Assembly: GCA_020252645.1 (NCBI GenBank)
Contig: JADCCN010000016.1
Location: 1 to 43,422, forward strand
Reading direction: 5' to 3'
DNA length: 43,422 bases
Origin: Methylobacterium sp.
Lineage (GTDB): Bacteria > Pseudomonadota > Alphaproteobacteria > Rhizobiales > Beijerinckiaceae
The notes below the pieces were generated by a model. The model was given only the letters and a program-made list of their open reading frames with translations, did not search any database and had not been told where the DNA came from. Shown in pieces: positions 24,004 to 43,027 of this stretch. Position 1 is the stretch's first letter. Every line of letters begins with the position of its first letter. The position numbers and the translations under genes were made by a program.

Positions 24004-25020
24004 ATGGATGACATCATCAAGCGCAATCCGATCCGGAGCCTGATCATCGCGATCCTCATCGTGATCTTCCTCTGGCTTGTCTTCGCGCCCTGGCCGCCGG
24101 AACTGGTGGCGAAATGGGGGCGCAAGCAGATCTTCCTCAATGCCTTGCTCGGCGGCATCACGCTGGGGGCGCTCTATTTCCTGGTGGCCGCGGGTTTCAC
24201 GCTGATCTTCGGGTTGATGCGCGTGGTGAACCTCGCGCATGGCTCGCTGTTCCTGCTCGGCGGCTATCTCGGCTACGAGATCTCGATCGCGACCGGCTCC
24301 TGGTTCCTGACCTTCCCCATCGTGTTCATCGTCGTGGGCCTGCTGGGCCTGCTGATGCAGCGCTTCATCTTCTCGAAGATGGAGGGCGAGGAGCTGCGCC
24401 AGACCCTCGTGAGCATCGGCATTTCCATCGTTCTGGCCGATCTGATGCTCTGGTTCTGGGGCGGGCAATCCTATTCGATCCTGGCGCCGGCCTTCCTGCA
24501 GGGGCCGATGGAATTGCCGATCATCAACTCCATCAATGCCAATACGGGTGCCACGAACTGGCTGCGCTACCCGGCGGTGCGCATCTGGATCCTGATCGCC
24601 GCGATCGTGATCGGAATCGCGATGTGGCTGGTGCTGAACCGAACCGCCCTCGGCATGCTGATCCGCGCGGGCGTGGATGATCGCGAGATGCTCGCGGCCT
24701 CCGGCGTGCGCATCCAGCTCGTCTTCCTGGTGGTTTTCGGCTTCGGTGCGGGCCTTGCCGGTATGGCCGGCATCATCGGCGGCACCTTCCAGTCGCTCTC
24801 GCCGGGCGAGGATACGCGCTTCCTGCTTGCGAGCCTCGTGGTGGTGATCGTCGGCGGCATGGGCTCCATCGTGGGAGCGGCCATCGGCGCGATTATCATC
24901 GGCGTGACCGAGCAGATGGGCTTTGTCTATGCGCCGACCTATTCCGTGGTCTTCACCTTCCTGATCATGGCGGCGGTGCTGGCCTTCCGCCCGCAGGGCC
25001 TTCTCGGTTCGAGGCGCTGA
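24004..25020 (+). CDS. ABC transporter permease, LivH type
   Basis: This inner-membrane permease has 338 residues. It starts with a membrane anchor (SLIIAILIVIFLWLVF) and continues with the LivH core: LGGITLGALYFLVAAGFTLIFGLMRVVNLAHGSL, AGLAGMAGIIGGTF and VVVIVGGMGSIVGA. It is longer than E. coli LivH because of about 45 extra N-terminal residues that include a further membrane helix. The ATG at 24004 (MDDIIKRNP) is used because no LivH similarity lies upstream. A 168-base gap separates it from the AraC gene. livM follows after 3 bases. Confidence 0.9.
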   Translation: MDDIIKRNPIRSLIIAILIVIFLWLVFAPWPPELVAKWGRKQIFLNALLGGITLGALYFLVAAGFTLIFGLMRVVNLAHGSLFLLGGYLGYEISIATGSWFLTFPIVFIVVGLLGLLMQRFIFSKMEGEELRQTLVSIGISIVLADLMLWFWGGQSYSILAPAFLQGPMELPIINSINANTGATNWLRYPAVRIWILIAAIVIGIAMWLVLNRTALGMLIRAGVDDREMLAASGVRIQLVFLVVFGFGAGLAGMAGIIGGTFQSLSPGEDTRFLLASLVVVIVGGMGSIVGAAIGAIIIGVTEQMGFVYAPTYSVVFTFLIMAAVLAFRPQGLLGSRR

Positions 25021-25023
25021 TCC

Positions 25024-26085
25024 ATGGCCGTGACCGAACATGCTCCCCGCTTCGTGAACCGTGCCGACCAGAAATTCTGGTTCGAGCGCATTCCCGCACC
25101 CTGGTGGGCGCTGGCGGTTGTGCTCCTGTTCCTGCCGGTGGTCGCGAATAGTTTCTGGCTTTTCCAGGTGATGGGCTGGACCTTCATCCTCGGGATGATC
25201 GGGCTCAGCCTCATGTTCCTCGCCGGCTATGGCGGCATGGTGAGCCTGCTGCAGATGACCATTGCCGGGGTGGCCGGCTACATGGTCGCGATCCTCGGCT
25301 CCTCCGGCACGGTCACGGTCAGCCTCGGGCTGGCATGGTGGATCGTGATCCCCGCCGCCTTCCTGATCGCGGCCCTGTTCGCCACGGTGGCCGGCGCGCT
25401 CGCCGTGCGCACGGAGGGCATCTACACCATCATGATCACGCTGGCGATCGCGTCGGCCTTCTTCTATTTCACGCGGCAGAACTACACGATCTTCAACGGC
25501 TATTCCGGCTTCAACCTCGTGCTGCCGCCGCAGCTTTTCGGGGTGAACTGGCGCGATCCGGTGCCATTTTACTACCTCAGCCTGGCGCTGGCCGCGCTCT
25601 CCTATGGCGCGGTGGTCTATATCTCGCGTTCGCCCTTCGGGCTGGCCTTGCAGGGCGTGCGCGACAATCCCCGCCGCATGGCGGCACTCGGCTTCAATGT
25701 CACGGCGCATCGCGTCGCGGCCTATGCTCTGGCGAGCGTGTTCGCCTCGGCCGGCGGCATCCTGCTCGTCTGGCAGAATGCGCAGATCGCGCCCGGCACC
25801 ATCGGCATTTCGGCCGCGATCGACGTGCTGGTGGTGGCGGTGGTCGGCGGCATGCGGCGCCCGCTGGGGCCGTTCATCGGCGCCTTCATCTATGTGCTGC
25901 TGCAGGTCTTCTCGCCGGATATTCTCGGGTTTTTCGGCTTCTCGGCCGAGCGTTTCAAGCTGATCATCGGCCTTGGCTTCCTTGCCGTGGTCCTGTTCTC
26001 GCCCGATGGCGTGCTGGGCCTGTGGGATCGCTGGCGCGCGCGCCGGCAGCGGCGCGAGGCCGATGGCGCGGGAGGTGCGGCATGA
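25024..26085 (+). CDS. ABC transporter permease, LivM type
   Basis: This second channel subunit of the Liv-type importer has 353 residues. It shows many hydrophobic segments and the family blocks GYGGMVSLLQMTIAGVAGY, LAVRTEGIYTIMITLA, LQGVRDNPRRMAALGFN and VVAVVGGMRRPLGPFIGA. The C-terminus is basic (RWRARRQRREADG), probably cytoplasmic. The stop overlaps the first ATPase gene (ATGA). Confidence 0.9.
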   Translation: MAVTEHAPRFVNRADQKFWFERIPAPWWALAVVLLFLPVVANSFWLFQVMGWTFILGMIGLSLMFLAGYGGMVSLLQMTIAGVAGYMVAILGSSGTVTVSLGLAWWIVIPAAFLIAALFATVAGALAVRTEGIYTIMITLAIASAFFYFTRQNYTIFNGYSGFNLVLPPQLFGVNWRDPVPFYYLSLALAALSYGAVVYISRSPFGLALQGVRDNPRRMAALGFNVTAHRVAAYALASVFASAGGILLVWQNAQIAPGTIGISAAIDVLVVAVVGGMRRPLGPFIGAFIYVLLQVFSPDILGFFGFSAERFKLIIGLGFLAVVLFSPDGVLGLWDRWRARRQRREADGAGGAA

Positions 26086-26885
26086 ACGCGCCGGTGAACC
26101 CGCCGCGCCCCGTTTCGCTGGGGCAGACCAATGTCAGCGCCGGCAACGCGCTGGAACTGCGCGGCATCTCGAAGATGTTCGGCGCGCTGGCCGCGATTTC
26201 CGATGTGACGCTCTCCGTGCGCCCTGGCGAGAGGCGCGCGGTTCTCGGCTCGAACGGCGCCGGCAAGACCACGCTCTTCAACTGCATCACCGGCGATTTC
26301 CTGCCGACGACCGGGCTGATCCGCTTCTTCGGCGAGGATGTGACGGTTTTCCCCCCGCATGAGCGCATCCGGCGCGGATTGCGGCGCACCTACCAGATTT
26401 CTTCGCTCTTCACCGGTCTCTCGGTGATCGACAACGTCTATCTCGCCTGCCGGGGAGTTTCGCGGAACCGCTTCTCGCTGATCCGCCCGCGCCGGGATGA
26501 TGCCCTCGTGCATGCGGCGGAAACGCTGGTGGAGGCGGTGCATCTTTCGGCCGAGAAGAACCGGCTCGTGGGCGAACTGGCCTATGGCCAGCAGCGCCAG
26601 CTCGAGATCGCCCTCGCGCTGTCGGGCGCGCCGCGCTTCGTCCTGTTCGATGAGCCGGCGGCGGGCTTGTCCCCGGCCGAGCGTCGCGACCTCGTCTCGA
26701 TCCTTACGACCCTGCCGAGCCATATCGGCTACATCATCATCGAGCATGACATGGATGTGGCCCTGCGTGTCGTCGAGAGCGTGACGATGATGCATAATGG
26801 CCGCATCTTCAAGGAAGGCCGCCCGGAGGAGATCGAGGACGATCCCGAGGTGCAGGAACTTTATCTGGGAGGCGGCCATGAGTGA
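26082..26885 (+). CDS. ABC transporter ATP-binding protein, LivG type
   Basis: This is one of two nucleotide-binding subunits of the importer, 267 residues. It has Walker [10 protein letters not shown] (near 56), the Q-loop region [10 protein letters not shown], the signature [12 protein letters not shown] (near 166) and Walker [14 protein letters not shown] (near 185). The signature is the LivG-like variant with YGQQ. It overlaps the upstream permease by 4 bases and the next ATPase by 8 bases, so translation is coupled along the transporter genes. Confidence 0.92.
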
Positions 26886-29103
26886 GCGCGGCTCGCGCGG
26901 TGCTGGCGCGCCCGTCCTCCAGTTGCAGGGCGTGAACGTGTTCTACGGCCGCTCGCATGCCGTGCAGGGCGTGGATCTCGCGCTGCATTCCGGCGTGGTC
27001 TCGGTGGTCGGCCGCAACGGCATGGGGAAGACCACGATGTGCAAGGCCATCATGGGCCTTGTGCCGGTCTCTTCCGGCTCCATCCGCTTCATGGGCGAGG
27101 AACTGGTGGGCCGCAAGCCGGCCGAGATCGCGCGGATGGGCATCGGCTATGTGCCGCAGGGGCGGCGGCTCTGGCGCTCGCTGACGGTCGACGAACATCT
27201 CCGCCTGATGTCGCGCGGGAAGGGCGCCTGGACGCCCGAGCGCATCTATGACGTTTTCCCGCGCCTTGCCGAACGGCGGCGGAACGGCGGCGGCCAGCTT
27301 TCGGGCGGCGAGCAGCAGATGCTGGCGATCAGCCGCGCGCTGCTGATGAACCCGCGCCTGCTCATCATGGACGAGCCGACCGAGGGCCTCGCCCCGGTGA
27401 TCGTGGCGCATGTCGAGGAAACGCTGGTGCGTCTTGCGGCGGAGGGCGATGTCTCGATCCTGGTGATCGAGCAGAATATCGGCGTCGCGACTGAGATGTC
27501 CGACACCATCGCCATCATGGTCAACGGGCGCATCCACCGGGTGATCGCCTCCTCGGTGATCGCTGCGGATCGCGATCTCCAGCAGCGGCTGCTCGGTGTC
27601 GGTCGCCACAGCGGGGACGAAACGGACACGCCGGCGGGCGGGCAGCCGGCCGGCGAGGCGCGCTCCGTGCCGGCCGCGCCGCAAGGGCCGATCCGCGTCT
27701 ACATCGCCAACCCGACCCCGCCCACGCGCTGGTCGCAGGATGTTCCGGCGGCGCGGATCGAGGCGCAGGCGCGCACGATCTCGCGGCCGATTCTCGCCAC
27801 CATCGATGGCCGGCGCGTGGGCGATGTCTCGCCGCTCGCGGCGCGTGCGCCGCAGGAGCCGCATGTCATCATCGCCGGCACGCTCGACACCAAGGGCGAG
27901 GAGCTGCGCTACCTGCGCGACATCATCAAGGCCGCGGGGCTGCGCACGCGGCTCGTGGATCTCTCCACCAATGGCCGCAACCAGGGGGCCGATGTCTCGG
28001 CGCAGGAGGTTGCGCTGGCGCTTCCCACGGGTTCGGCGGGCATCGCCTCGGGGGATCGCGGCAAGGCCGTCGCCGCCATGACAGACGCTTTCCGCGCCTG
28101 GATGGCGCGTCAGCAGGGCGTGATCGGCATCATCTCGGCGGGCGGCTCCGGCGGCACGGCGATCGCCACCGCCGGCATGCAGACCCTGCCGGTGGGCGTG
28201 CCCAAGCTGATGGTCTCGACCATGGCATCCGGCAATGTCGCGGCCTATATCGGCCCGACCGACATCACCATGATGCCTTCGGTGACCGATGTTCAGGGGT
28301 TGAACCGTGTCTCGCGCGCGGTGCTCGGCAATGCGGCGCAGGCCATGGCGGCGATGGCACGGGCCTTCCACGAGCAGCAGCACGGCCCCGCGATACGCCG
28401 CGCGGCTCCGGAGAAGCCCCTCGTCGGCCTCACGATGTTCGGCGTCACCACCCCTTGCGTGCAGCAGGTGACGCGCCTCCTTGAAAAGGATTGGGAGCCG
28501 CTGGTGTTCCATGCGACCGGCGTTGGCGGCCGCTCGATGGAAAAGCTCATCGATTCCGGGCTCGTGCCGGGTGTGATCGATGTCTCCACCACCGAAATCT
28601 GCGACATGATGATGGGCGGCATGCTGCCCGCCACCGAGGATCGCTTCGGCGCGATCATCCGCACGAAAATCCCCTATGTCGGCTCGGTCGGCGCGCTCGA
28701 CATGGTGAATTTCGCAGCGCCCGAAACCGTGCCCGCGCATTATCGCCAGCGGCTCTTCTATCCCCATAATCCACAGATCACGCTGATGCGGACCACCGCA
28801 GACGAGAACCGCCGCATGGGCCGCTGGATCGGCGAGCGCCTGAACCAGATGGAAGGCCAGGTGCGCTTCCTCCTCCCCGAGGGCGGCGTTTCCGCGCTCG
28901 ATGCGCCGGGCCAGCCGTTCTGGGATCCGGCGGCCGACGCCGCGCTCTTCGATGCGCTCGCCGAAACGGTGCGCGTTACCGCCACGCGGCAGCTCATCCG
29001 CCTTCCGCTTCACATCAACGACCCCGCCTTCGCGGCGGCCCTCGCGCAGCATTTCCGCGCGCTGCATCAGGGCCGCTTCAAGGGCGCGACCGGCAGGACC
29101 TGA
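26878..29103 (+). CDS. LivF-type ABC ATPase fused to a Tm-1-like (UPF0261) domain
   Basis: This is a 741-residue two-domain protein. Residues 1 to about 241 form a complete LivF-type ATPase: Walker [10 protein letters not shown] (45-53), signature LSGGEQQ (141-147), Walker B LLIMDEP (about 161-167). A linker of about 85 residues, rich in Ala, Pro and Arg, follows. From about 327 the protein is a Tm-1-like/UPF0261 domain, with [69 protein letters not shown] and [15 protein letters not shown]. Tm-1 domains bind ATP and are of unknown bacterial function; their usual neighbour, a TIM-barrel protein, follows after 3 bases. There is no stop or frameshift between domains, so it appears to be a true fusion linking import to that unknown step. 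Confidence 0.9.
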
Positions 29104-29106
29104 GAC

Positions 29107-29961
29107 ATGCCTCGCTTTGCCCGAACCGAACTGCTCGCCCGCTACCGCGCGATGATCGCGCGCGGCGAGCCGATCATCGGCGGCGGGGCCGGCACGGGCC
29201 TTTCCGCGAAATGCGAGGAAGCCGGCGGGATCGATCTCATCGTCATCTATAATTCCGGGCGTTTCCGCATGGCCGGGCGCGGCTCGCTCTCGGGCCTGAT
29301 GCCCTATGGCGATGCCAATGCCATCGTGATGGACATGGCGAGGGAGGTGCTGCCGGTGGTGCAGAACACCCCGGTCATTGCCGGCGTCTGCGGCACGGAC
29401 CCCTTCCGCGACATGGATGTTTTCCTCGACGAGGTGCAGCGCATCGGCTTCTCGGGCGTGCAGAATTTCCCGACTGTCGGGCTGATTGACGGTGTGTTCC
29501 GGCAGAATCTCGAGGAAACCGGCATGGGCTTCGGCCTCGAGGTGGAGATGATCCGGCTCGCCTCGCGGAAGGGCCTTCTCACCACGCCTTACGTTTTCTC
29601 CGAGGCCGATGCCGCGGCCATGGCGAAGGCGGGCGCGGATATCATCGTCTGCCATCTCGGGCTCACGACCGGCGGCTCGATTGGCGCGGAAACGGCGCTG
29701 ACACTCAAGGATTGCCCCGCCATCGTCGATGCCTGGGCGGCGGCGGCTCTCGCGGTCAAACCGGATGCCATCATTCTGGCGCATGGCGGGCCGGTGGCCG
29801 AGCCGGAGGATGCCGATTTCATCATGAAGAAGACCCGCCATTGCCACGGCTTCTACGGCGCCTCCTCGATGGAGCGCCTGCCGGTGGAAGTGGCGATCCG
29901 CGAACAGACCAGGGCTTTCAAGTCAATCAGCCGCGCGGGCGGCACGCCGCAAACGGCGTAA
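29107..29961 (+). CDS. TIM-barrel protein of the 'phosphoenolpyruvate hydrolase' family
   Basis: This 284-residue protein belongs to the TIM-barrel family (PF09370) often named phosphoenolpyruvate hydrolase or signal-transduction TIM barrel. It resembles aldolases of the isocitrate-lyase/PEP-mutase superfamily in style. Conserved-looking blocks are [48 protein letters not shown] and [10 protein letters not shown]. In many genomes it is the partner of UPF0261 genes, either adjacent or fused, and that pairing is kept here. The catalysed reaction is not established, so the family name should not be read as function. Confidence 0.82.
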
Positions 29962-29990
29962 ACCGGGCAGGCCGAGGGGAGAAACGTGAC

Positions 29991-32603
29991 ATGACGGGGC
30001 AATTGATCGGAACGCTCATTCTCTGGCTCATCGTGGCGGTGATCGTGATCGCGATCCTCGTCTACCTGGTGAACTGGCTCTATCGCCGCTCCTCGAAGGA
30101 GGTGTCGTTCGTCCGAACCGGCCTCTTTGGCGAAAAGGTGGTGATCAATGGCGGCGCCTTCGTGCTGCCGATCATCCATGATGTCACGCCTGTGAACATG
30201 AACGTGCTGCGCATGGCGGTGACGCGCGCCAACCAGGATGCGCTGATCACGCGGGACAGGATGCGCGTCGATATCGATGCGGAATTCTATGTCCGCGTCC
30301 GGCCCGACAAGCCCTCGGTTTCCATCGCCGCCGCGACCCTCGGCCGGCGCACGCTGCAGCCCGACCAGCTCAATGCCCTGCTCGCAGGCAAGTTCATCTC
30401 GGCCCTGCGTTCCGTGGCCTCGGAAATGTCGATGGAGGAGATGCACGAGCAGCGCGGGCTCTATGTGCAGCGCGTGCGCGATGCCGCCGTCGACATGATG
30501 GAGCAGAACGGCCTCGTGCTGGAATCGGTCGCGATCACCGATCTCGACCAGACCGACCTGCAATATTTCAACCCCTCCAACCGCTTCGATGCCGAGGGCC
30601 TGACGCGGATCATCGGGGAGATCGAGGAAAAGCGGAAGCTGCGCAACGATATCGAGCAGGAATCGATGATCAGGATTCGTGCCCGCAATCTCGAGGCCGA
30701 GCGGCAGGCGCTGGATATCGAGCGCGAGAGCGAGACCGCGCGCCTGGAACAGCAGCGCGAGATCGAGATCCGCCGCGCCATGCAGCGCGCCGAGGTGGCG
30801 CGCGAGCGCGCGGCCCGCGATACCGAGGCCGAGCAGGCGCAGATCCTCTCCCGCGAGGAAATCGAGAAGTCGAAGATCGCCAATGATCGCGCCATCAGCG
30901 AGGCGCGCATCGCTTCCGAGCGCGAGGTGCGCCAGCGCGAGATCGAGCGCACCAAGGCGGTGGAGGCGGCGGAAATCGCGGCGCGCGAGGAAATCGAGAA
31001 GGCCCGCATCACCAACGAGAAGACCATCCAGGCCGCGCGCATCGCCTCCGATCTCGAGACGCGCCAGAAGGAAATCGAACGGACCCGCACGCTCGAAGCC
31101 GCGGAGATCGCCGCGCGTGAATCCACCGAAAAGGCCCGGATCACGCAGGAAGCGCTCGTCCATGCCGAGCGCATCGGGCGCGAGCAGGAGATCCGCAACC
31201 TCGAGATCGCGCGCAACCAGGCTTTGGACGAGGCCGAGATCGCCGCCCGCGAGGCCGTGGAAAAGGCCCGTATCGCGCAGGAAAACGCGGTGACCGCCGA
31301 GCGCATCAGCTTCGAGGAGGGGCGGCGGAAGCTGGAGATCGAGCGGAACAAGGTCGTGGAAACGGCGGAAATCTCTGCCCGCGAAGCCACCGAAGCCGCG
31401 CGCATCGCGCAGGAAAAGGCGATCGCCGCCGAGCGCATCGCCTCCGAACTCGCGACGCGCCGGCTCGAAATCCGCCGGACCGAGGAACTCGAGGCGGCGG
31501 AAATCCAGCGCCGCGATGCCGTGGAGCGCCAGCGGATCGCCGCCGAACTCAAGATCGAGGAGGAGCGCATCGCCTCCAGCAAGACGCGCGAGATCCTGCA
31601 GATCGATCAGAAGCGCGTGGTTGAACTCGCGGAGGAGGATCGCGCCATCATCGTCGCTGCCAAGAAGGCCGAGCGCACCGATGCCGACAAGGCCCTGCGG
31701 CAGGCGGAAATCGTTGCGAAGCAGGAAGTGGAGCGCACGGATGTGGCCCGCGAGCAGGCGCTGGAAGCCGCGCGCCTCGAGCGCAAGCGTGTGATCGAGC
31801 AGCTCGAGATCGCGCGGCTGCAGGCGCTTCAGGAAGCGCAGATCGCCTCGAACGAAGAGGTGGAACGCGCGCGCATCGCCTCCGATCGCGGCCTCGACGT
31901 CGCCCGCGTGGGGCGCCAGCGCGATCTGCGCAAGCTCGAGATCGAGCGCGAGCGCGATGTCGAGAATGCGGCGATGGAAAAGGCCATCACGCTCTACACC
32001 AAGTCGCTGGAAGAGAGCGCGGCCTTGGCCCAGGCGGAGATCGCCAAGGCCAAGGCCGTGGAAGCCGCCGAAATGGTCAAGACCGTTCAGGAGAGCGAGA
32101 CCGCGAAGCGTCGCAAGACCGTGGAAGTGATGATGGCCGAGAAGGCGGCCGAGGAAACCCGCATCGCCGCGGAGGCCGAGAAGGTGCGCCGCGCCGTGGA
32201 AGCGGAAGCGCAGCGCCTCCTCTACGAGGCCGAGAATGTGCTCACGGATGGGGCGCGATACGGCCTGTTCCGCCGCCGCCTGCTCGACCGGATCGAGGGC
32301 ATCGTGCGCGAGAGCGTGAAGCCCATGGAGAAGATCGACGGCATCAAGATCCTGCATGTCGATGGTCTTGGCGGGGCAGGGGGCAGCTCGGTTGCCCGCA
32401 CGCCCACCGACGAGGTGATCGAGAGCGCCCTGCGCTACCGCGTGCAGGCGCCGCTCATCGACGAGGTGCTGAAGGAGGTCGGCATCGAGGGCGGCAGCCT
32501 TGCCAAGATGGGCGGGCTGATGCGCGAGGCATCCGACATGCAGCGCGTTGCGAAGGACGCCCAGCCGCCCAAGCCGAAAGATGGCGGCGGCGAGAAGAAA
32601 TGA
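29991..32603 (+). CDS. Flotillin-like SPFH protein with long 44-residue coiled-coil repeats
   Basis: This 870-residue protein has an N-terminal membrane segment (LIGTLILWLIVAVIVIAIL, about 5-23) and an SPFH domain to roughly 200 (GLFGEKVVINGGAFVLPIIH, YVRVRPDK). A very long charged coiled-coil follows from about 205 to 750. Within it, six consecutive units of exactly 44 residues start at 285, 329, 373, 417, 461 and 505 (pattern IxxREExEKxRI...EIER). Since 44 is four hendecads, an unbroken rod is expected. The C-terminal region (about 760-870) is globular-looking and ends in a Pro/Lys/Gly tail. Flotillins are usually much shorter (about 450-650). Flotillins scaffold membrane microdomains; here it sits among Mo-hydroxylase and transport genes. 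Confidence 0.88.
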   Translation: MTGQLIGTLILWLIVAVIVIAILVYLVNWLYRRSSKEVSFVRTGLFGEKVVINGGAFVLPIIHDVTPVNMNVLRMAVTRANQDALITRDRMRVDIDAEFYVRVRPDKPSVSIAAATLGRRTLQPDQLNALLAGKFISALRSVASEMSMEEMHEQRGLYVQRVRDAAVDMMEQNGLVLESVAITDLDQTDLQYFNPSNRFDAEGLTRIIGEIEEKRKLRNDIEQESMIRIRARNLEAERQALDIERESETARLEQQREIEIRRAMQRAEVARERAARDTEAEQAQILSREEIEKSKIANDRAISEARIASEREVRQREIERTKAVEAAEIAAREEIEKARITNEKTIQAARIASDLETRQKEIERTRTLEAAEIAARESTEKARITQEALVHAERIGREQEIRNLEIARNQALDEAEIAAREAVEKARIAQENAVTAERISFEEGRRKLEIERNKVVETAEISAREATEAARIAQEKAIAAERIASELATRRLEIRRTEELEAAEIQRRDAVERQRIAAELKIEEERIASSKTREILQIDQKRVVELAEEDRAIIVAAKKAERTDADKALRQAEIVAKQEVERTDVAREQALEAARLERKRVIEQLEIARLQALQEAQIASNEEVERARIASDRGLDVARVGRQRDLRKLEIERERDVENAAMEKAITLYTKSLEESAALAQAEIAKAKAVEAAEMVKTVQESETAKRRKTVEVMMAEKAAEETRIAAEAEKVRRAVEAEAQRLLYEAENVLTDGARYGLFRRRLLDRIEGIVRESVKPMEKIDGIKILHVDGLGGAGGSSVARTPTDEVIESALRYRVQAPLIDEVLKEVGIEGGSLAKMGGLMREASDMQRVAKDAQPPKPKDGGGEKK
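30843..31634 (+). repeat. Six 132-base units encoding 44-residue coiled-coil repeats
   Basis: Units start at 30843, 30975, 31107, 31239, 31371 and 31503, each 132 bases apart with no length variation. They are diverged at DNA level but align as protein, with a recurrent I-A-A-R-E start and an E-I-E-R block late in most units. The constant length over six copies points to constraint on coiled-coil register rather than recent DNA slippage. Confidence 0.8.
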
Positions 32604-32614
32604 CGGGGTGAACC

Positions 32615-33052
32615 ATGGCGCGCGTCTATGCCTCCAGCGTGATCAACGCTTCCGCCAGCCGGGTCTGGGCCCGCGTGCGGGATTTCAACGGCCTGCCGAA
32701 CTGGCACCCGGCCATTGCCGAAAGCCGCATCGAGAATGGCGAGCCCGCCGACAAGGTGGGCTGCATCCGGGCCTTCTCGCTCCGGAACGGCGACCGGCTG
32801 CGCGAGCAGCTTCTCGGCCTGTCCGATTACGACATGTTCTGCACCTACTCGATCCTCGACAGCCCCATGCCGCTGACGAATTATGTGGCCACTCTTCGGC
32901 TCACGCCCATCACCGACCAGGACCGCACCTTCATCGAATGGTCGGCGGAATTCGATTGCGCGCCCGACAAGGTGGCCGATCTCGTCTCCGGCATCGGCGG
33001 CAACGTGTTCCAGGGCGGGTTTGACGCGCTGAAGCGGGCCTTCGGAGGCTGA
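32615..33052 (+). CDS. SRPBCC (CoxG-like / START-fold) protein 1
   Basis: This 145-residue SRPBCC-fold protein has the family's hydrophobic-pocket pattern: SASRVWARVRDFNGLPNWHPAI at the start, then GCIRAFSLRNGDRLREQLLGL and YSILDSPMPLTNYVATLRL. It is paralogous to the next gene (same spacing of RDFN, HP, REQL and LD-P-x-NYVA). CoxG, an SRPBCC protein, is needed for membrane attachment and electron coupling of CO dehydrogenase; a similar role for the Mo hydroxylase encoded just downstream is inferred. The ATG is 11 bases after the flotillin stop. Confidence 0.85.
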   Translation: MARVYASSVINASASRVWARVRDFNGLPNWHPAIAESRIENGEPADKVGCIRAFSLRNGDRLREQLLGLSDYDMFCTYSILDSPMPLTNYVATLRLTPITDQDRTFIEWSAEFDCAPDKVADLVSGIGGNVFQGGFDALKRAFGG

Positions 33053-33053
33053 G

Positions 33054-34339: not shown

Positions 34340-34825
34340 ATGGCGAAGGTTCCCGTGCAATTCCGGCTCAACGGCTCCGATCGTGCGGCCTTTGCCGATC
34401 CGGCCGACAACCTCCTCACCGTGCTCAGGCGGGGGCTCAATGATTTCGGCCCGAAATATGGCTGCGGGCAAGGCACCTGCGGCACCTGCTCGGTGCTGAT
34501 CGACGGTGAATTGCGCCTCTGCTGCCTCACGCTCGCGGCTTCCTGCGAGGGTGCCAGCATCGAAACGGTCTCCGGCATGGCGGACGGGCCGAACCTGCAT
34601 CCCCTCCAGAACGCCTTCATGGAGCATTTTGCGGCGCAGTGCGGCTTCTGCACGCCGGGCATGCTGATGGCCGCCAAGGCGCTGCTGGACCGCAACCCCA
34701 ACCCCGGCCGCGAGGAGGTGATCGACGCCATCGCCGGCAATATCTGTCGCTGCACCGGCTACGAGCCGATCATCCAGGCGATCCTCGCCGCCGCGCGGGG
34801 ATTGCCCGCGCAAGGCCGATCCTGA
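34340..34825 (+). CDS. 2Fe-2S (small) subunit of a molybdenum hydroxylase
   Basis: This 161-residue small subunit carries two 2Fe-2S clusters: the ferredoxin-like site YGCGQGTCGTCSVLIDGELRLCC and the four-helix-domain site CGFCTPGM plus ICRCTGYE. Cys spacing is complete, so it should transfer electrons between the molybdopterin and FAD subunits. GGGAGGGCGAG precedes the ATG at 34340. It is the second such small subunit in the window; the IorA-like protein at 13520 is a different subfamily (ICRCGTYN ending). Confidence 0.93.
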   Translation: MAKVPVQFRLNGSDRAAFADPADNLLTVLRRGLNDFGPKYGCGQGTCGTCSVLIDGELRLCCLTLAASCEGASIETVSGMADGPNLHPLQNAFMEHFAAQCGFCTPGMLMAAKALLDRNPNPGREEVIDAIAGNICRCTGYEPIIQAILAAARGLPAQGRS

Positions 34826-34839
34826 AGGAGGCTGACGCC

Positions 34840-36537: not shown

Positions 36538-36538
36538 G

Positions 36539-37573
36539 ATGGCCCGTTTCCGTGGGCGCGGCATGGCGTCCGTCAATTACCCGATCGGCATGAATCTCGG
36601 CGGCGATCCCAGCCAGGCGCTGATCCATTCGAACCCCGATGGCAAGTTCACCGTGGCGCTCTCAGCCATCGATCTCGGCCAGGGCATGAAGCAGGTGACC
36701 CGGCAGGTGGCGGCGGAGACGCTCGGCGTGCCGATCGAGGATGTCTATGTCGACACCGCCGACAGCGATACCGGCCCGCATGACATGGGCTCCTTTGCCT
36801 CGCGCGGCACGCATCGGATGGGCAATGCGGTCATCGCCGCGGCCCGCGAGGCGAGGGGCGTGCTGCTCGATGCCGCGGCCGAGGAGCTGGAGGTGAACGC
36901 GGCCGATCTCGTGACGGACGGCAAGGGCAACATCCATGTGAAGGGCGCGCCCTCGCGCGCGATCACGGTGCGGGCCACGGCGCAGGCCGCGCAGTTCAAG
37001 CAGGGCAAGACCATTGCCGGGCGGGGCATCTTCCTCATCCCGCTCTCGTCCGTCGATCCCGAAACCGGCGAGATGAACCCCAACACGGCCTTCGCCCATG
37101 CCTGCCTCGTGGCGGATGTGGAGGTGGATGACGAGACGGGCGAGGTCACCGTGCTCGGCATGAATTCGGCCTATGAGCTCGGCCGCGTCATCAACCCGAA
37201 AATGGTGGAGCAGCAGCTCGTGGGCGGCGCCTGGATGGGGTTGAGCCATGCGCTCTATGAAACGCCCGAGCCCTATTACCCCAACCCCGATCACGGTCCG
37301 CGCGATTTCAACGAATACCTGATGCCCGGTCCGGGCGACATCGCGCCCTATTCGATCGCCATTCTCGAGCGCCCCGCGCCCGATGGCCCTTTCGGCGGCA
37401 AGGGGCCGGGTGAAATGTGCGCGAACCCCGTTCTGCCGGCCATCGCCAATGCCGTCTACAACGCGGTCGGCGTGCGCGTGAACGAGCTGCCGATCACGCC
37501 CGAGAAGATCCTGCGCGGCATCAAGGCGAATGGCGGCGCGAAGCCGCAACAGCGTCGTGGCGGAGCGCTCTGA
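36539..37573 (+). CDS. Molybdenum hydroxylase large subunit, C-terminal half (split)
   Basis: This 344-residue protein is the second molybdopterin-binding domain. It starts at RGRGMASVNYPIGMN, goes on with ALSAIDLGQGMKQVTRQVAAETLGVP and HDMGSFASRGTHRMGNAV, and holds the catalytic Glu292 in GPGEMCANP. It has its own ribosome site (AAGGAGG) and its start lies one base after the first half's stop, so two polypeptides are expected rather than a frameshift product. Both halves together contain all normal motifs of one large subunit, so an active heteromer is likely. An ATG at 36491 is also in frame but overlaps the first half. Confidence 0.9.
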   Translation: MARFRGRGMASVNYPIGMNLGGDPSQALIHSNPDGKFTVALSAIDLGQGMKQVTRQVAAETLGVPIEDVYVDTADSDTGPHDMGSFASRGTHRMGNAVIAAAREARGVLLDAAAEELEVNAADLVTDGKGNIHVKGAPSRAITVRATAQAAQFKQGKTIAGRGIFLIPLSSVDPETGEMNPNTAFAHACLVADVEVDDETGEVTVLGMNSAYELGRVINPKMVEQQLVGGAWMGLSHALYETPEPYYPNPDHGPRDFNEYLMPGPGDIAPYSIAILERPAPDGPFGGKGPGEMCANPVLPAIANAVYNAVGVRVNELPITPEKILRGIKANGGAKPQQRRGGAL

Positions 37574-37590
37574 GCCATGAGCCCTGAATC

Positions 37591-38475
37591 ATGACGATCC
37601 GCGCGCTCCCCAACGGTCTTTCGAGCCCCGAAGCCCTCTCGGAAGCCCTGCGCGCGGCCTATTACCTCGCGGATGACGGCATCGCGACCGCCGCGTTCCT
37701 CGCGCTCGCGCTTGGCAAGCCGCTGCTGCTGGAAGGCGCGCCGGGCGTCGGCAAGACCGAGGCCGCGAAGGCGCTTTCCGGCATTCTCGGGCGGCAATTG
37801 ATCCGCCTCCAGTGCTTCGAGGGGATCGATGCCAGCGCCGCACTCTATGAGTGGAACTATCCGCGCCAGATGCTCGCGATCCGGCAGGCGCGGGAAGGCG
37901 AGAGCGCCGATCTCTACCGCGACGATTTCCTGATCGAGCGGCCGATGCTCACCGCCCTGCGGCGACCGGAATCGACGGTCCTGCTCATCGACGAGATCGA
38001 CCGTTCCGACCATGAATTCGAGGCCTTCCTGCTGGAATTCCTCTCGGATTTCTCGATCTCCATCCCCGAGCGCGGAACCTTGCGCGCCGCCGAGCGTCCC
38101 GTGGTGATCCTCACCTCGAACCGCACGCGAGACCTCCATGAGGCGCTCCGGCGCCGCTGCATCTACCATTACATCGCCTACCCCGAACCCCAGCGCGAGG
38201 CGGCGATCATCATGCTGCGCTCCTCGGCCGTGGCGGAGGGAACCGCGCGGGCCGTGGTGCGCGCCGTGGGCCTGTTGCGGCAGGAGCCGCTCACCAAGCC
38301 GCCGGGCGTGGCCGAAGCCGTGGATTGGGCGGAGGCCGCGACCGCGCTTGCCCGCACGGGTGCGCCCTGGCCGGATGCCTTCCGGCGCTCCATCGGAGCG
38401 GCCTTGAAGGACGAGGAGGATCTCGCCTTCCTCCGGTCCCGGCTCGATTCCTTCATCGCGCCGGTGGCGGCATGA
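37591..38475 (+). CDS. MoxR/CoxD-type AAA+ ATPase
   Basis: This 294-residue MoxR-family ATPase has Walker A GAPGVGKTE (about 49-57), Walker B TVLLIDEIDR (about 130-139), sensor region VVILTSNRTRDLHEALRRRC, and the arginine-finger style ending of the family. In CO-dehydrogenase operons the homologue CoxD, with CoxE, helps mature the active site. Here the same gene pair follows the Mo-hydroxylase subunits, suggesting maturation or quality control of that enzyme. Its stop overlaps the VWA gene start (ATGA). Confidence 0.9.
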   Translation: MTIRALPNGLSSPEALSEALRAAYYLADDGIATAAFLALALGKPLLLEGAPGVGKTEAAKALSGILGRQLIRLQCFEGIDASAALYEWNYPRQMLAIRQAREGESADLYRDDFLIERPMLTALRRPESTVLLIDEIDRSDHEFEAFLLEFLSDFSISIPERGTLRAAERPVVILTSNRTRDLHEALRRRCIYHYIAYPEPQREAAIIMLRSSAVAEGTARAVVRAVGLLRQEPLTKPPGVAEAVDWAEAATALARTGAPWPDAFRRSIGAALKDEEDLAFLRSRLDSFIAPVAA

Positions 38476-39608
38476 GCGGGTCGGTTCTCCCTGCGGCATC
38501 ACGCCCCTTCGTGGCCTTCCCGGCCTTGCTGCGGGAGCACGGCTTCGCTGTCTCGCCTGACCAGACCATCACGTTCCTCGAGGCGGTCACCGTTCTCGGC
38601 CCCCGCTCGCTGGAGCAGGTGCGGCAGGCCGCCTGGGCCACGCTCGCGCCGCAGCCGCAGCAGCGCGAAACCTTCGATGCCCTGTTCGATTTCCATTTCC
38701 TCGGCGGTGTCGCCGAACCGGGCGAGGCAGATGATTGGCAGCCCGACGACGAGATGAACGTTCAGGAGGAGGCGGGCAGCCGCGAAATCCTCATCGGCGA
38801 GAACGTCAACGAAACGGGCCAGCAGGCGATCGAAGCCGAGGCCCTGGCGATCCGCGCGCTGCGGCCGCCGGATGCGGGCGATGTTCTCGCCCGTTTCGCA
38901 CGGGATCTGCCGGCGGCGCTTCCCCGCCGGCGCGGCTATCGGTTCCGGCGGGCACGGCGCGGGGCCTCGATCGATCTCGCCCGCAGCCTGCGTGCCGCGA
39001 TCCGCACCGATGGCGATGTGATGCGGCTCACCCGTCGCCGGCGCGCGAGCCGGCCCCGGCCGGTTCTCCTGTTGATCGACGTCTCCGGCTCGATGAAGAG
39101 CCGCACCGATGCCAATCTCGCGCTGGCGCATGTCATCGTGCAGAGCGCGCCGCGGGTCGAGGTCTTCACCTTCGGCACACGCCTCACACGGGTCACGCGG
39201 GCGCTGAAACTGCGCAACCGCGAGCAGGCGCTCGCGCAAGCCTCGGGGCTGGTGGCGGATTGGGATGGCGGCACGCGCATCGGGGATGCGCTGGCGGCGT
39301 TCCTTGCCGTGCCGCGTTTCGCCGGCTATGCGCGCGGCGCGGTGGTGGCGATCCTCTCGGACGGGCTCGAACGCGGCGACCCCGGCGCGATGATCGCCGC
39401 CGCGCGGCGGCTCGCGGCGCGCGCCTTCCGCATCGACTGGTTCTCGCCGCTGGCGGCGGACCCGGATTACCAGCCGCAGACGGAAGCCCTCGCGGCGATC
39501 CGCCCGATGCTTGCCTCGCTCTCCAACGGCAATTCCACCGCCGCGATCTGTCGGCATCTGCTCTCGCTCGGGCAGGGCGAGCCGATGCTGCGGGGGAGGG
39601 CGGCATGA
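38472..39608 (+). CDS. VWA-domain protein, CoxE type
   Basis: This 378-residue partner of the MoxR ATPase has an N-terminal helical region that includes FPALLREHGFAVSPDQTITFLEAV. The C-terminal von Willebrand A domain has a complete MIDAS motif (LLLIDVSGSMKS, Asp203-x-Ser-x-Ser) and later WDGGTRIGDALAAFL. The middle is acidic, then strongly basic (RRRGYRFRRARRGA). CoxE-type proteins work with CoxD-type ATPases as metal-dependent adaptors. Translation is coupled at both ends (4-base overlaps). Confidence 0.9.
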   Translation: MSGSVLPAASRPFVAFPALLREHGFAVSPDQTITFLEAVTVLGPRSLEQVRQAAWATLAPQPQQRETFDALFDFHFLGGVAEPGEADDWQPDDEMNVQEEAGSREILIGENVNETGQQAIEAEALAIRALRPPDAGDVLARFARDLPAALPRRRGYRFRRARRGASIDLARSLRAAIRTDGDVMRLTRRRRASRPRPVLLLIDVSGSMKSRTDANLALAHVIVQSAPRVEVFTFGTRLTRVTRALKLRNREQALAQASGLVADWDGGTRIGDALAAFLAVPRFAGYARGAVVAILSDGLERGDPGAMIAAARRLAARAFRIDWFSPLAADPDYQPQTEALAAIRPMLASLSNGNSTAAICRHLLSLGQGEPMLRGRAA

Positions 39609-40483
39609 TCGACGCCCATTTCCATATCTGGCGACAGGCCGATCTGCCCTGGCTTTCGGGGCCCATGCAGCCGCGCATCTTCGGGCCCTACGAGCCGATC
39701 CGCCGGGATTACCCGATCGAGGAATATCTGGCCGACGCCGCCGCCGCCGGCATCACCGGCGCGGTCTATGTGCAGGCGAACTGGGCGCCGGCGCGCGCGC
39801 TGGATGAGGTGCGCTTCGTGGCGGAATCGGCAAAGCGCGCGGGGTTCCCGGTCGGCATCGTCGCCTATGCCGACATGCTCGCCGAGGATATCCGCCCCCA
39901 ATGTGAAGCGTTGGCCAGGGAGCCCTCCGTGCGCGGCGTGCGGATGCAAATCCACTGGCACGAAAACCCGCTCTACCGCTTCGCATCCGGCCCCGATCTC
40001 GCCCGTGATCCGGTTCTCCAGCGCAATGTCGCGCGGCTCGCGGATCATGGCTGGAGCTTCGATCTGCAGGTCTTCGCGGGGCAGATGGCGGGCGCAGCGG
40101 AACTCGCGGCCGCCTGCCCGAAGGTCACCTTCGTGCTCCAGCATGCGGGGATGCTCGAAGACCTGTCGGAAGCGGGCATCGCCGAGTGGCGTTCGGGCAT
40201 GATGCTTCTCGCGAAGCAACCGAATGTCGTGAGCAAGCTCTCGGGCCTCGGCACCTTCCTGCGCCGGAACGAGCCGGCGCATATCGCCTTCATTGCGCGC
40301 GAGACGATTGCGATGTTCGGCGCCGGGCGCTGCCTCTTTGGCTCGAACTTCCCGATCGAGAAGCTCTGGACGACCTATGCCGAGCTGATCGCCGCCCATC
40401 GCGCGGCGGTGGCGTCGCTTTCGGAGGCCGAGCAGGCGCAGATTTTCGCGGGCGCCGCCCGCCAGACCTACAAGCTGACATAA
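39605..40483 (+). CDS. Amidohydrolase family 2 protein (PDC-lactonase/4-sulfomuconolactonase-like)
   Basis: This 292-residue TIM-barrel metal hydrolase starts with the metal-binding MIDAHFHIW. Further likely ligands or active-site residues are in MQIHWHENP, VLQHAGM and the C-terminal LFGSNFPIEKLW (a SNFP-type motif with a usual catalytic Asp replaced by Asn in this loop). The family includes lactonases such as 2-pyrone-4,6-dicarboxylate hydrolase, and decarboxylases. A role in opening a lactone or cyclic product made by the Mo hydroxylase is inferred. It overlaps the VWA gene by 4 bases. Confidence 0.85.
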   Translation: MIDAHFHIWRQADLPWLSGPMQPRIFGPYEPIRRDYPIEEYLADAAAAGITGAVYVQANWAPARALDEVRFVAESAKRAGFPVGIVAYADMLAEDIRPQCEALAREPSVRGVRMQIHWHENPLYRFASGPDLARDPVLQRNVARLADHGWSFDLQVFAGQMAGAAELAAACPKVTFVLQHAGMLEDLSEAGIAEWRSGMMLLAKQPNVVSKLSGLGTFLRRNEPAHIAFIARETIAMFGAGRCLFGSNFPIEKLWTTYAELIAAHRAAVASLSEAEQAQIFAGAARQTYKLT

Positions 40484-40499
40484 CGAGGAGGAACTCCCC

Positions 40500-41348
40500 A
40501 TGCCGCTGGAAATCAAGGTGCTCGATTATGGCGATATCGAGCTTGAATCGAGCTTCCTCGTGCTGGGTCGCGGCTGCGGCCAGCGCAAGCGCACCTATAC
40601 CTACGGCTTCCTGATCCTCGGCGGGCCCTGGCCCGTGGTGGTCGATACCGGCTATCGCCACAACCAGATCATGGAAAGCCTCGGCATGCGGGGCCTGCAA
40701 TTCCACGAGAACATGATCGAGAACCAGCTGATGAAACACGGCGTGCGCATGGGTGATGTGCGCTACGTGGCGCATACGCATCTGCATATCGACCATGCCG
40801 GCAAGGACGAGCTCTTCCCGATGAACACCACGGTGATCATCAACCGGCGCGAACTCGAATATTCCGTCTCGGGGCTGATGCATCCGCAATATCCGGCACC
40901 GGACATCAAGCACCTGATCGACCGGCTGCACACGAAGCACGCGCTCCGGCTCGAGGATCTCGAACTCACGGGCATGATCGAACTCTTCCCCGGCTGCTAT
41001 CTCGAGGCGGCGGGTGCCCATACCGAGGGCTCGATGAACATCCATGTCGATACCGCCGAGGGTCGCGCCACGATCTGCGGTGACGTGATCTATGATTTCA
41101 ACGACCAGATCGTGGACCCTTATCACGAAATCCACGCCGACGAGCCGCGTGTCACCGGCAATCACGGCACCACGAAAAGGCAGGAAAAGGCGGCCATCAA
41201 GAAGCTGCTGAACGGTTCGCGCTTCCTGCTGCCGGTGCATGACAAGCCCGCGAGGATCGAGGCGGGGCAGGTGGTGGGCCGGCTCGACATGGCCGTGCCC
41301 GGCCCGCTCACGCAGAGCGTGCCGAAGCGCAACTGGTTCCCGGTCTGA
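40500..41348 (+). CDS. Metallo-beta-lactamase-fold lactonase-like hydrolase
   Basis: This 282-residue metallo-hydrolase has the dinuclear zinc motif THLHIDHAG (His94-x-His96-x-Asp98-His99), with further ligands likely in AAGAHTEGSMNIHVDT and ICGDVIYDFNDQ. It resembles N-acyl homoserine lactonase-like proteins. Given the operon, a catabolic lactone or cyclic ester is a more likely substrate than a quorum signal, but this cannot be told from sequence. ACGAGGAGG precedes the ATG. It is 16 bases after the amidohydrolase. Confidence 0.85.
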   Translation: MPLEIKVLDYGDIELESSFLVLGRGCGQRKRTYTYGFLILGGPWPVVVDTGYRHNQIMESLGMRGLQFHENMIENQLMKHGVRMGDVRYVAHTHLHIDHAGKDELFPMNTTVIINRRELEYSVSGLMHPQYPAPDIKHLIDRLHTKHALRLEDLELTGMIELFPGCYLEAAGAHTEGSMNIHVDTAEGRATICGDVIYDFNDQIVDPYHEIHADEPRVTGNHGTTKRQEKAAIKKLLNGSRFLLPVHDKPARIEAGQVVGRLDMAVPGPLTQSVPKRNWFPV

Positions 41349-41376: not shown

Positions 41377-41410
41377 CCGATGGTGGAGGAAAGCCGATGG
41401 TGGAGGAAAG
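41377..41410 (+). repeat. 17-base tandem duplication duplicating a ribosome-binding site
   Basis: CCGATGGTGGAGGAAAG is repeated exactly at 41377-41393 and 41394-41410, giving two GGAGG sites before the ATG at 41414. The second copy is at optimal spacing and probably serves the gene. Confidence 0.88.
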
Positions 41411-41413
41411 ACC

Positions 41414-43027
41414 ATGACGACGCATGTCGCGCTTGATCCGGCTTTTGCCGAACTCGTGGACCTCTGGGCTCCGGTCCGCCAGATCGGCACCGGCTTCCAG
41501 TTCACCGAAGGCCCGATCTGGCATCCGAAGGATCATTACCTCCTGTTCTCGGACATGCCGGGCGATGTGCGCCGCCGCTGGGACCGCGCGGGCGTCACCG
41601 AGGTGATGCGCCCGGCGAACAAATGCAACGGCATGACCTATGATGCCGACCTGAACCTCATCATCTGCGAGCATGCGACCTCGACCCTCGTGCGCGAACG
41701 CGCCGATGGCCGCCGCGAGGTGCTCGCCTCCCATTTCGATGGCCGCGAACTCAACAGCCCCAACGATGTCGTCGTGAAGAGCGACGGTGCGATCTATTTC
41801 TCCGATCCCTGGTATGGCCGCATGCCGGTCTATGGCGTGGAACGGCCGCGGCAACTCGGGTTTCAGGGCGTCTATCGCATTGCGCCCGGTGGCGGGCCGC
41901 CGCAATTGCTGGTGGAACGCATGCTGTTCGACCAGCCCAACGGGTTGTGTTTCTGCCCCGACGAGAGCAGGCTCTACGTCAACGATACGGTGCAGCACGT
42001 CATCCGCGTCTTCGATGTGAAGGCGGATGGAAGGCTGGCCAATGGCCGCATCTTCGCCTCAGGCATCGTGTCGGCCAGCGAGCCCGGCGTGCCGGATGGC
42101 ATGAAATGCGACCTTTTCGGCAATGTCTGGGTCTGCGGGCCGGGCGGCGTCTGGGTCTATGCGCCGGATGGGCGGCTCATCGGCAAGCTGCGTGTGCCTG
42201 AACTCGTCGGCAACCTCACCTGGGGCGGGCCGGATTTCCGCACCCTGTTCCTCACCGCCACGCATTCGGTCTATGCGGTCGAGACGAAGGTGGGGCCGCG
42301 CAGCGAGCCCTATATGCGGCAAGCCGCGAGCGGCCGCGCCTCCGCGCCGCAGGCCGGGGCGAGCATCGGCCGGAACGGCGCGAAGAAGGCCGCACCGGGC
42401 TATTCGCTCGATCCCTCCCGCTGTGCGCTGATCATCCAGGACATGCAGAACGATGTGGTGATGGAGGGCGGTGCCTTCGCTTCCTCCGGCTCCCCCGTCC
42501 ATTGCCGCGAGCAGAACGCCATCGGCAATGCCGCGCGCCTCGCAACGGCGGCAAGGCAGCGCGGAATTCCCGTCATCCATGTCTGGTTCGTGGTGGAGCC
42601 GGGCTGCCCCGGCGTGACGATGAACGCGCCGCTCTTCGAGGGCCTCGCCGATGCGCGCGCGCTGGTGCGAGGCAGCTGGGGCGTGGCACCCGTGCCGGGG
42701 CTCGAGGCCCAGACCGGCGATCATGTCGTCGAGAAGCAGCGCATGAGCGCCTGGGAGGGCACGCGGCTCGAAACCGTGCTGAAGGCGCTGAAGCGCGACA
42801 TCGTGATCGTCACCGGCGCATGGACCAACATGTCGATCGAGCACACATCGCGCACGGGCGCGGACAAGGGCTATTTCATGGTCGTGCCGGAGGATTGCTG
42901 CTCCACCATGAATGCCGAATGGCACACCGCCTCGGTGAACTACGCGTTGCAGAATGTCGCGGTCATCACCGATGCCGATGCCCTGATCGGCGCATGGGGC
43001 CTGAGCCCGGGGCGGGAACAGACCTGA
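41414..43027 (+). CDS. SMP-30/gluconolactonase fused to isochorismatase-like hydrolase
   Basis: This is a 537-residue two-domain protein. Residues 1 to about 295 form a six-bladed SMP-30/gluconolactonase propeller with the usual metal ligands: Glu32 in FTEGPIWHP, Asn117 in NSPNDVV, and Asp191 in YVNDTVQ. After a short Ala/Gly-rich linker, residues about 335-530 form an isochorismatase-like domain with Asp343 (IIQDMQND) and Lys441 (VVEKQRMSAW). The nucleophile position of cysteine hydrolases (TNxCxE) is Ser474 (TNMSIE), so it is not a normal cysteine amidase. It could act like the Cys-less isochorismatases or be non-catalytic. It ends the operon, downstream of a duplicated ribosome site. Confidence 0.88.
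   Translation: MTTHVALDPAFAELVDLWAPVRQIGTGFQFTEGPIWHPKDHYLLFSDMPGDVRRRWDRAGVTEVMRPANKCNGMTYDADLNLIICEHATSTLVRERADGRREVLASHFDGRELNSPNDVVVKSDGAIYFSDPWYGRMPVYGVERPRQLGFQGVYRIAPGGGPPQLLVERMLFDQPNGLCFCPDESRLYVNDTVQHVIRVFDVKADGRLANGRIFASGIVSASEPGVPDGMKCDLFGNVWVCGPGGVWVYAPDGRLIGKLRVPELVGNLTWGGPDFRTLFLTATHSVYAVETKVGPRSEPYMRQAASGRASAPQAGASIGRNGAKKAAPGYSLDPSRCALIIQDMQNDVVMEGGAFASSGSPVHCREQNAIGNAARLATAARQRGIPVIHVWFVVEPGCPGVTMNAPLFEGLADARALVRGSWGVAPVPGLEAQTGDHVVEKQRMSAWEGTRLETVLKALKRDIVIVTGAWTNMSIEHTSRTGADKGYFMVVPEDCCSTMNAEWHTASVNYALQNVAVITDADALIGAWGLSPGREQT

Follow-up and report, generated by a model that had tools for sequence, protein, structure and literature searches.

A conserved gene block of Methylobacterium sp. 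with a split molybdenum hydroxylase, a Liv-type importer, a long flotillin and hydrolase genes

The genome of Methylobacterium sp. studied here (3.05 Mb) holds a contig of 43,422 bp (JADCCN010000016.1), which was analysed as a whole and is called the window below. It contains a block of genes (24004-43027) in which a molybdenum (Mo) hydroxylase, its large subunit split in two, is packed together with a Liv-type importer, a long flotillin and several hydrolases. The block lies entirely on the plus strand and runs from the start of LivH (24004) to the stop of a gene in which an SMP-30 domain is fused to an isochorismatase-fold domain (43027). From LivH to the gene of a metallo-beta-lactamase-fold (MBL) protein (24004-41348) the gaps are 29 bp or less, and four pairs of genes overlap (LivM/LivG, LivG/LivF, MoxR/VWA and VWA/amidohydrolase), with the starts chosen by us. 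The tight, overlapping arrangement on one strand that a first-pass annotation had described is borne out, and all the genes it named are found in their places, but the system starts earlier than the annotation had it: upstream of LivH and in the same orientation (20465-23835) lie genes for an ABC substrate-binding protein (SBP) of the Liv/Urt type (20465-21730; PF13458, 199.6 bits; best solved relative 4zpj), an iron-containing alcohol dehydrogenase family protein (Fe-ADH; 21847-22902; PF25137, 82 bits) and an AraC-type regulator (22999-23835; PF12833). Relatives of the block also carry the SBP and AraC genes, and some of them the Fe-ADH gene, which is optional. At the 3' end, the block is probably not cut by the end of the contig, since the near relative G117 runs beyond the block and the open reading frames (ORFs) picked there past the fusion lie mostly on the opposite strand.

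At the centre of the block are four genes for the Mo hydroxylase, which encode an FAD subunit (33508-34329; PF00941 and PF03450), a subunit with two [2Fe-2S] clusters (34340-34825; PF01799 and PF00111) and the two halves of the large subunit, Mo1 with MoCoBD_1 and a C-terminal tail (34840-36537; PF01315 and PF02738) and Mo2 with MoCoBD_2 (36539-37573; PF20256, 204 bits). The FAD, 2x[2Fe-2S], hammerhead, MoCoBD_1 and MoCoBD_2 domains are all present, which places the enzyme in the xanthine oxidase family. The split of the hydroxylase, already recognised in the first-pass annotation, is a true division into two genes: the large subunit is encoded in this way in 108 of 108 loci and Mo1 and Mo2 are fused in none, which led us to reject a frameshift as its origin (seven loci were counted twice in our tallies of the split, the gene fusions, the Ser rows and motif conservation, and the set for fusions and split also took in locus L227). 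The best solved relatives of the two halves are the chains of nicotinate dehydrogenase from Eubacterium barkeri (NdhFSLM; 3HRD), chain A for Mo1 (E = 8e-59) and chain B for Mo2 (E = 3e-47), followed in both cases by 4-hydroxybenzoyl-CoA reductase; aldehyde oxidoreductases score lower. NdhFSLM has the same division of the large subunit between MoCoBD_1 and MoCoBD_2 and also has FAD and FeS subunits. It differs in that NdhL (3hrd_A) has 425 aa and thus no long tail, whereas Mo1 is tailed. The partners of nicotinate dehydrogenase in its pathway include 6-hydroxynicotinate reductase and enamidase, and the block yielded no family match to either.

The active site is consistent with this relationship. 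The GPGEMC motif of Mo2 aligns with GVGEPA of NdhM, with G and E conserved over 85 rows, and the Glu of this GxGE motif in MoCoBD_2 is the catalytic one. The position of Tyr13 of NdhM is likewise kept in the Mo2 alignment. Lys343 of Mo1 aligns to an Arg of NdhL and is invariant in 27 rows, including that from an archaeon; we take its position to be that of the substrate-binding Arg880 of xanthine dehydrogenase. Given the match to Ndh, Lys343 and the lack of the motif of CO dehydrogenase (CODH; see below), an anionic N-heteroaromatic compound is a reasonable guess for the substrate, no more, and in the order of our guesses an N-heteroaromatic acid would come first and a lactol or aldehyde second.

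The block recurs in many bacteria from soil and water, and its named relatives are found in Bosea, Bradyrhizobium, Phreatobacter, Xanthobacter, Aquabacter and others, with many genomes of Bradyrhizobium and Bosea among them; the closest are Rhabdaerophilum sp. SD176 and metagenome-assembled genomes labelled Beijerinckiaceae or Methylobacterium, which puts the window within the sphere of the Rhizobiales. A search of the same family with the MoCoBD_2 half gave orthologs with 67-100% identity in 16 of 149 genomes, the own genome included, and a clear gap below them, the next group of matches having only 37% identity. Matches to Mo2 with E <=1e-60 were found in 8 of 385 genomes of a class sample and 16 of 398 genomes of a phylum sample, again counting the own genome. 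The loci from named genomes that were compared are the best 80 of 496 matches; this choice favours close relatives and takes in several short contigs, and the presence of each gene was judged by tblastn, because ORF picks alone were sometimes antisense. The block is an evolutionary unit, since all 80 named loci preserve gene order and strand for whichever of the genes they contain. Counted only where a locus had enough flank, which was the case in no locus for LivF and Tm-1, the TIM barrel (64/64), flotillin (64/64), the SRPBCC proteins SRP1 (67/67) and SRP2 (68/68), the FAD (68/68) and FeS subunits (70/70), Mo1 (73/73), MoxR (78/78), VWA (77/77), MBL (75/75), SMP-30 (74/74) and the isochorismatase domain (73/73) were always present, and the amidohydrolase in 75 of 77 loci. 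The comparison of neighbourhoods that the first-pass annotation had proposed thus reveals homologous blocks in many genera in which flotillin, SRPBCC and hydrolase genes are kept together and in order, an outcome in favour of its interpretation.

Smaller modules are nested in this arrangement. The Mo core (FAD, FeS, Mo1 and Mo2) occurs without the helpers of the block in G342 (two copies) and G434, and on a plasmid of the haloarchaeon Salinigranum rubrum it is joined by a cyclase-family protein and an SRPBCC protein (L144, 15328-20434; Mo2 60% identical). In Nonomuraea, the core is accompanied by MoxR, VWA and amidohydrolase and then a YCII gene, and in Sinorhizobium BG8, where Mo1 appears frame-broken, in G112 and in five genomes from a different family of the order, by MoxR, VWA, amidohydrolase, AraC and SRP1. 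The full block adds the importer, LivF-Tm1, the TIM barrel, flotillin, SRP2, the SMP-30/isochorismatase fusion and usually the MBL gene, which is missing from the blocks of Shinella and G306. In the eight modules without importer and flotillin, MoxR, VWA and amidohydrolase are kept in all and an SRPBCC protein in seven; minimal modules have one SRPBCC protein at most. Other hydrolase families that follow the Mo core elsewhere are cyclase and M19 dipeptidase. In a midpoint-rooted tree of 37 rows (39 were chosen, and G461 and L094, from which no Mo2 was extracted, were left out; G434 and L092 covered 42-43% of the columns), the full block forms one side of a branch with a support of 100/100, with the minimal modules outside. 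A different split Mo pair, 36% identical to Mo2, was seen on a plasmid of Phaeobacter (L149, 9202-13062), where it adjoins genes for a tripartite transporter, a semialdehyde dehydrogenase and an IlvD/Edd-type dehydratase; this context is a hint that some split Mo enzymes act in sugar-acid pathways.

Mo1 of the full block carries 80-174 residues beyond the aligned core. In the window this tail (residues 451-565; codons at 36190-36534) is rich in Pro and Ala, predicted to be disordered and ends in RFSSVFGTRRR. Pro plus Ala make up 45% of the linker, all 91 distinct tails end in RRR, and 93-97% of them keep R, F, S and S at positions -11 to -8. In the AlphaFold model, which is mediocre overall with a mean confidence (pLDDT) of 69, most values from residue 451 to the end lie below 50; confidence is low at residues 1-34 as well. 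With a linker that is variable and disordered but an end that is fixed, the tail resembles a docking peptide. Its distribution follows that of flotillin: among distinct loci with more than 8 kb of upstream sequence, the tail is present in 80 of 80 with flotillin and in 0 of 10 without, and of 18 further distinct loci with less upstream sequence, 11 have the tail, 2 do not and 5 could not be assigned. The tail was probably gained once in evolution.

The flotillin itself (29991-32603; 870 aa; PF01145 and PF15975) consists of Band_7 and Flot domains with an N-terminal membrane segment, recognised by eye, and a long coiled coil (window 30700-32300) with a period of 44 residues (4 x 11). It shares the SPFH and flotillin domains and the N-terminal membrane segment with FloT of functional membrane microdomains but is longer (870-1155 aa among the orthologs), has the long coil with the 44-residue period and is encoded within a putative catabolic operon; with the FloT model NF058507 (NCBIfam) it scores 24.3 bits, far below the cut-off of 700. 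In G038, LivF-Tm1 adjoins a long flotillin in the absence of a Mo2 ortholog, so that the flotillin may primarily be a partner of the importer. Shorter flotillins (552-572 aa) were seen next to ABC-transporter genes in L228, L229 and L230, with Fe-ADH nearby in L228 and L229 and, in L228, also a symporter, an MBL gene and, by eye, an aldehyde dehydrogenase.

The importer that had been proposed for the block is indeed encoded, with the families of two permeases, LivH (24004-25020; PF02653) and LivM (25024-26085; PF02653), and two ATPases, LivG (26082-26885; PF00005, UrtD/LivG-like) and LivF. Both members of the Tm-1/TIM-barrel pair noticed at first are also present, but Tm-1 is not a separate gene: LivF and the Tm-1-like (UPF0261) domain pair form a single ORF (26878-29103; PF00005, PF06792 and PF23189), with the reading frame open across the fusion in all 87 loci in which the two parts were found next to each other. 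The UPF0261 part matches Tm-1-like proteins of plants and bacteria (3WRY, 9MPY) strongly and differs from them in its fusion to a transport ATPase. The TIM barrel that follows (29107-29961; PF09370, 433 bits) is a strong match to the phosphoenolpyruvate (PEP)-hydrolase-like protein 2P10 (E = 1.1e-120). Elsewhere, Tm-1-like and PEP-hydrolase-like genes stand next to each other in 6 of the 8 further plasmid records viewed (L189, L190, L191, L193, L194 and L196), with Vibrio, Sinorhizobium, Serratia, Bosea and Bradyrhizobium as hosts; the pair follows a TetR gene in three, and on a plasmid of Bosea vestrisii the order is Tm1-PEPh-SRPBCC. The adjacency was not seen in the plasmid records of Haloarcula or Thermus, and the Tm-1 contexts in the eight records did not point to a substrate. 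The two genes are a portable unit.

Between flotillin and the Mo genes lie two small SRPBCC proteins, SRP1 (32615-33052; PF10604, 98 bits) and SRP2 (33054-33506; PF10604, 63 bits), the latter restricted to the full block, and downstream of Mo2 follow a MoxR-type AAA+ ATPase, CoxD-like by position (37591-38475; PF00004/PF07728), and a VWA protein of the CoxE type (38472-39608; PF05762, 164 bits). CoxG-, CoxD- and CoxE-like helpers had been suggested for these genes, which is right for the families of MoxR and VWA_CoxE but finds no support for CoxG at the level of families: at E 0.001, SRP1 and SRP2 match Polyketide_cyc2 (PF10604) and, weakly for SRP1, PF03364; COXG (PF06240) was matched by neither, and the one COXG match of this genome lies on a different contig. 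The model of SRP1 (pLDDT 94) has 7tmu and XoxI, both of unknown function, as its nearest folds, followed by plant abscisic acid receptors, and no CoxG is among the best 50 of 1426 fold matches; these neighbours are generic ligand-binding relatives. SRP1 and SRP2 may anchor to the membrane or bind a ligand. No XdhC-type match was found in the block, and two XdhC genes are on other contigs. The set CoxD/CoxE/CoxG of Oligotropha resembles the block in that a MoxR-type AAA+ and a VWA_CoxE protein stand beside a Mo hydroxylase with small SRPBCC proteins adjacent, but the enzyme of the block is not a CODH and its SRPBCC proteins are from another family. CoxD and CoxE act in the maturation of the CODH metal site, according to excerpts of PMC4240915, and CoxG-like proteins can anchor enzymes to membranes, according to excerpts of PMC11962113.

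The three hydrolases that had been read from the block are present as genes and families but are not all of standard type. The Amidohydrolase_2 family protein (39605-40483; PF04909, 155 bits; 4dlf, E = 2.3e-16) has L-fucono-1,5-lactonase (NF052480) as its nearest curated model, with 107.6 bits below the cut-off of 400. Its motif GSNFPIEK, conserved in 105 rows, stands where the beta-8 Asp motif of COG3618 amidohydrolases would be expected to read GSDWP. The lactonase-like MBL protein (40500-41348; PF00753) keeps the HxHxDH motif and is nearest to 4-pyridoxolactonase (3aj3, E = 7e-8). The last gene (41414-43027), open as a fusion in 94 of 95 loci, joins an SMP-30 domain nearest to gluconolactonases (PF08450, 181 bits) to the isochorismatase-fold domain (PF00857, 155 bits), which lacks the catalytic Cys.

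What do these genes do together? Gene content, order, conservation, fusions, split, families and the co-occurrence of tail and flotillin are observed; the chemistry that we build on them is inferred at every step. Our preferred reading, which we hold tentatively and stop short of calling probable, is a membrane-recruited, nicotinate-dehydrogenase-type Mo hydroxylase in a single catabolic unit of import, oxidation and hydrolytic ring opening. SBP and LivHMGF would import a small polar, probably anionic molecule. Tm-1, being joined to the ATPase of the importer, would act on it at the membrane together with the TIM barrel, in an ATP-linked step. The four-subunit hydroxylase, its Mo site matured by MoxR and VWA as could be expected from CoxD and CoxE, would then oxidise the molecule, most likely at the carbon next to the ring nitrogen, and electrons would pass via FeS and FAD to the respiratory chain or quinone. 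The tail peptide of Mo1 would dock to a flotillin scaffold and thereby hold the enzyme at the membrane near the importer and the quinone pool, perhaps with help from the SRPBCC proteins, and the amidohydrolase, MBL and SMP-30 enzymes would hydrolyse the resulting lactam or lactone. The flotillin-linked tail is a new and specific argument for the membrane scaffolding, which itself is still an inference. By analogy to encapsulins, whose cargo is loaded by a short terminal peptide, one may go further and speculate that a tall cage or raft made of the long flotillin surrounds the Liv-Tm1 importer, with the Mo hydroxylase as cargo bound via the docking peptide RFSSxxGxRRR on its Pro/Ala-rich linker; this picture is rather unlikely.

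Several observations weigh against the preferred reading. The isochorismatase-fold domain has Ser at the position of the nucleophilic Cys in 89 of 89 rows, where 3kl2 has Cys, and is probably not a normal thiol amidase because of this replacement; it is highly conserved despite it. The aligned chains of RutB and biuret hydrolase also have Ser at this position, which we take to be engineered trapping mutants in those structures. Lactonase-type families would fit a sugar or lactone route equally well, and in 6 of 8 plasmid records viewed the Tm-1/TIM-barrel pair occurs without Mo genes. The tail motif was found, by eye, at no ORF end printed beside other flotillins, which speaks against a general flotillin code, and since the tree puts the arrival of the tail, the flotillin, the importer, the fusion and further genes on a single branch, flotillin is not singled out as the partner of the tail. 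In the excerpts of the sources, coxG mutants still used CO (PMC4240915) and a CoxG-like protein of Sulfolobus was dispensable for electron transfer, i.e. quinone reduction (PMC11962113), and therefore a role of the SRPBCC proteins in electron transfer is not implied.

Three lactonase-type proteins follow the Mo enzyme, and for this reason a different chemistry is a serious rival, if a fairly improbable one: the Mo enzyme would be an aldehyde or lactol dehydrogenase that makes a lactone from a hydroxy-aldehyde, sugar-like or other, brought in by the importer, and the three hydrolases would then open this lactone. The assignments to L-fucono-1,5-lactonase, 4-pyridoxolactonase and gluconolactonases fit such a route, as do Fe-ADH and aldehyde dehydrogenase upstream and SDR-FAH-SDR downstream of the block in Yoonia, and a xylose-isomerase-like TIM barrel and Fe-ADH near the module of G112, where a hydantoinase-B gene and, by eye, an aldehyde dehydrogenase gene are also found. 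However, the halves of the large subunit score higher with nicotinate dehydrogenase and 4-hydroxybenzoyl-CoA reductase than with aldehyde oxidoreductases, and the Fe-ADH and aldehyde dehydrogenase genes are optional. A further alternative concerns only the tail and is compatible with all the rest: the peptide would bind anionic membrane lipids by its F/RRR end, or LivF-Tm1, and flotillin would organise the importer only. We consider this quite possible, though still improbable on balance. The invariant terminal RRR, the flotillin of G038 next to LivF-Tm1 and the entry of tail, flotillin, importer and fusion at one branch would all agree with it; a lipid-only anchor, on the other hand, needs no joint arrival with the importer and flotillin genes, but this was one event and cannot be weighed.

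To two other explanations we give next to no credence. MoxR, VWA_CoxE and SRPBCC genes adjoin the Mo hydroxylase as in an aerobic CODH or a CODH-like system for the oxidation of a gas, for which, however, an importer and hydrolases make no sense. The halves of the split large subunit are nearest to NdhL and NdhM, and with the two models of the CODH large subunit they reach only 158.9 (Mo1) and 138.4 bits (Mo2; NF040766, cut-off 950) and 151.1 and 103.4 bits (TIGR02416, cut-off 991). One half could hardly reach a full-length cut-off, but even the sum of both (297 bits at most) is far from it, and the scores are below the best ones with HcrA and PucD models. Instead of AYRCSFR, the Cu-binding loop of CODH, Mo1 reads AMRGFG, and over 27 rows the conservation of A373-G378 is 90% or more. 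Membership in the CODHs was rejected on the Ndh-like halves, the low model scores and the lack of the Cu motif and of COXG in the block. A stress or anti-phage system made up of MoxR, VWA and flotillin and inserted into a catabolic locus would be conceivable from the AAA+/VWA pairs that occur in such systems. But in a PADLOC scan of six proteins only MoxR matched (seven families, best 26 bits), with no match for VWA, flotillin, Tm-1, the TIM barrel or MBL, and this led us to reject a defence system; moreover, the minimal modules, too, have MoxR and VWA behind the Mo core.

Each part of the block is of a kind already known; what is apparently new within the open PubMed Central (PMC) literature searched is their combination, together with the fusion of LivF to Tm-1 and the tail linked to flotillin. 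The block was not named in this partial collection, neither in the papers on gene sets, MadB/MadC, UPF0261 and flotillin cages nor in those on Mo hydroxylases of N-heterocycles and 3-hydroxypyridine dehydrogenase. A further system close to the block is that of another Mo hydroxylase, which acts on an N-heterocycle and whose cluster contains PEP-utilising proteins but is not known to include flotillin or Liv-Tm1 genes. A CoxG homologue was proposed as its membrane anchor (excerpts of PMC11962113), a likeness by description.

The rest of the window holds photosynthesis genes (2775-12743; polyprenyl synthetase, O-methyltransferase, bchC/X/Y/Z-type genes and two for reaction-centre proteins, Photo_RC), a second Mo hydroxylase of a two-subunit type (13439-16152), which we take to be the isoquinoline-oxidoreductase type, SoxY-, SoxZ- and SoxA/TsdA-like genes up to 18158, and, on the minus strand and thus opposite to the block, genes for a ChrR-type cupin and an SDR (18163-19481).

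If the tail of Mo1 docks to flotillin, this would give bacterial flotillins a concrete and genetically testable job, the placing of a named enzyme complex beside an importer. It would also open a way to the chemistry of the Tm-1/UPF0261 proteins, which in this block are joined to a transport ATPase, and to a pathway carried by many genomes of Bradyrhizobium and Bosea.

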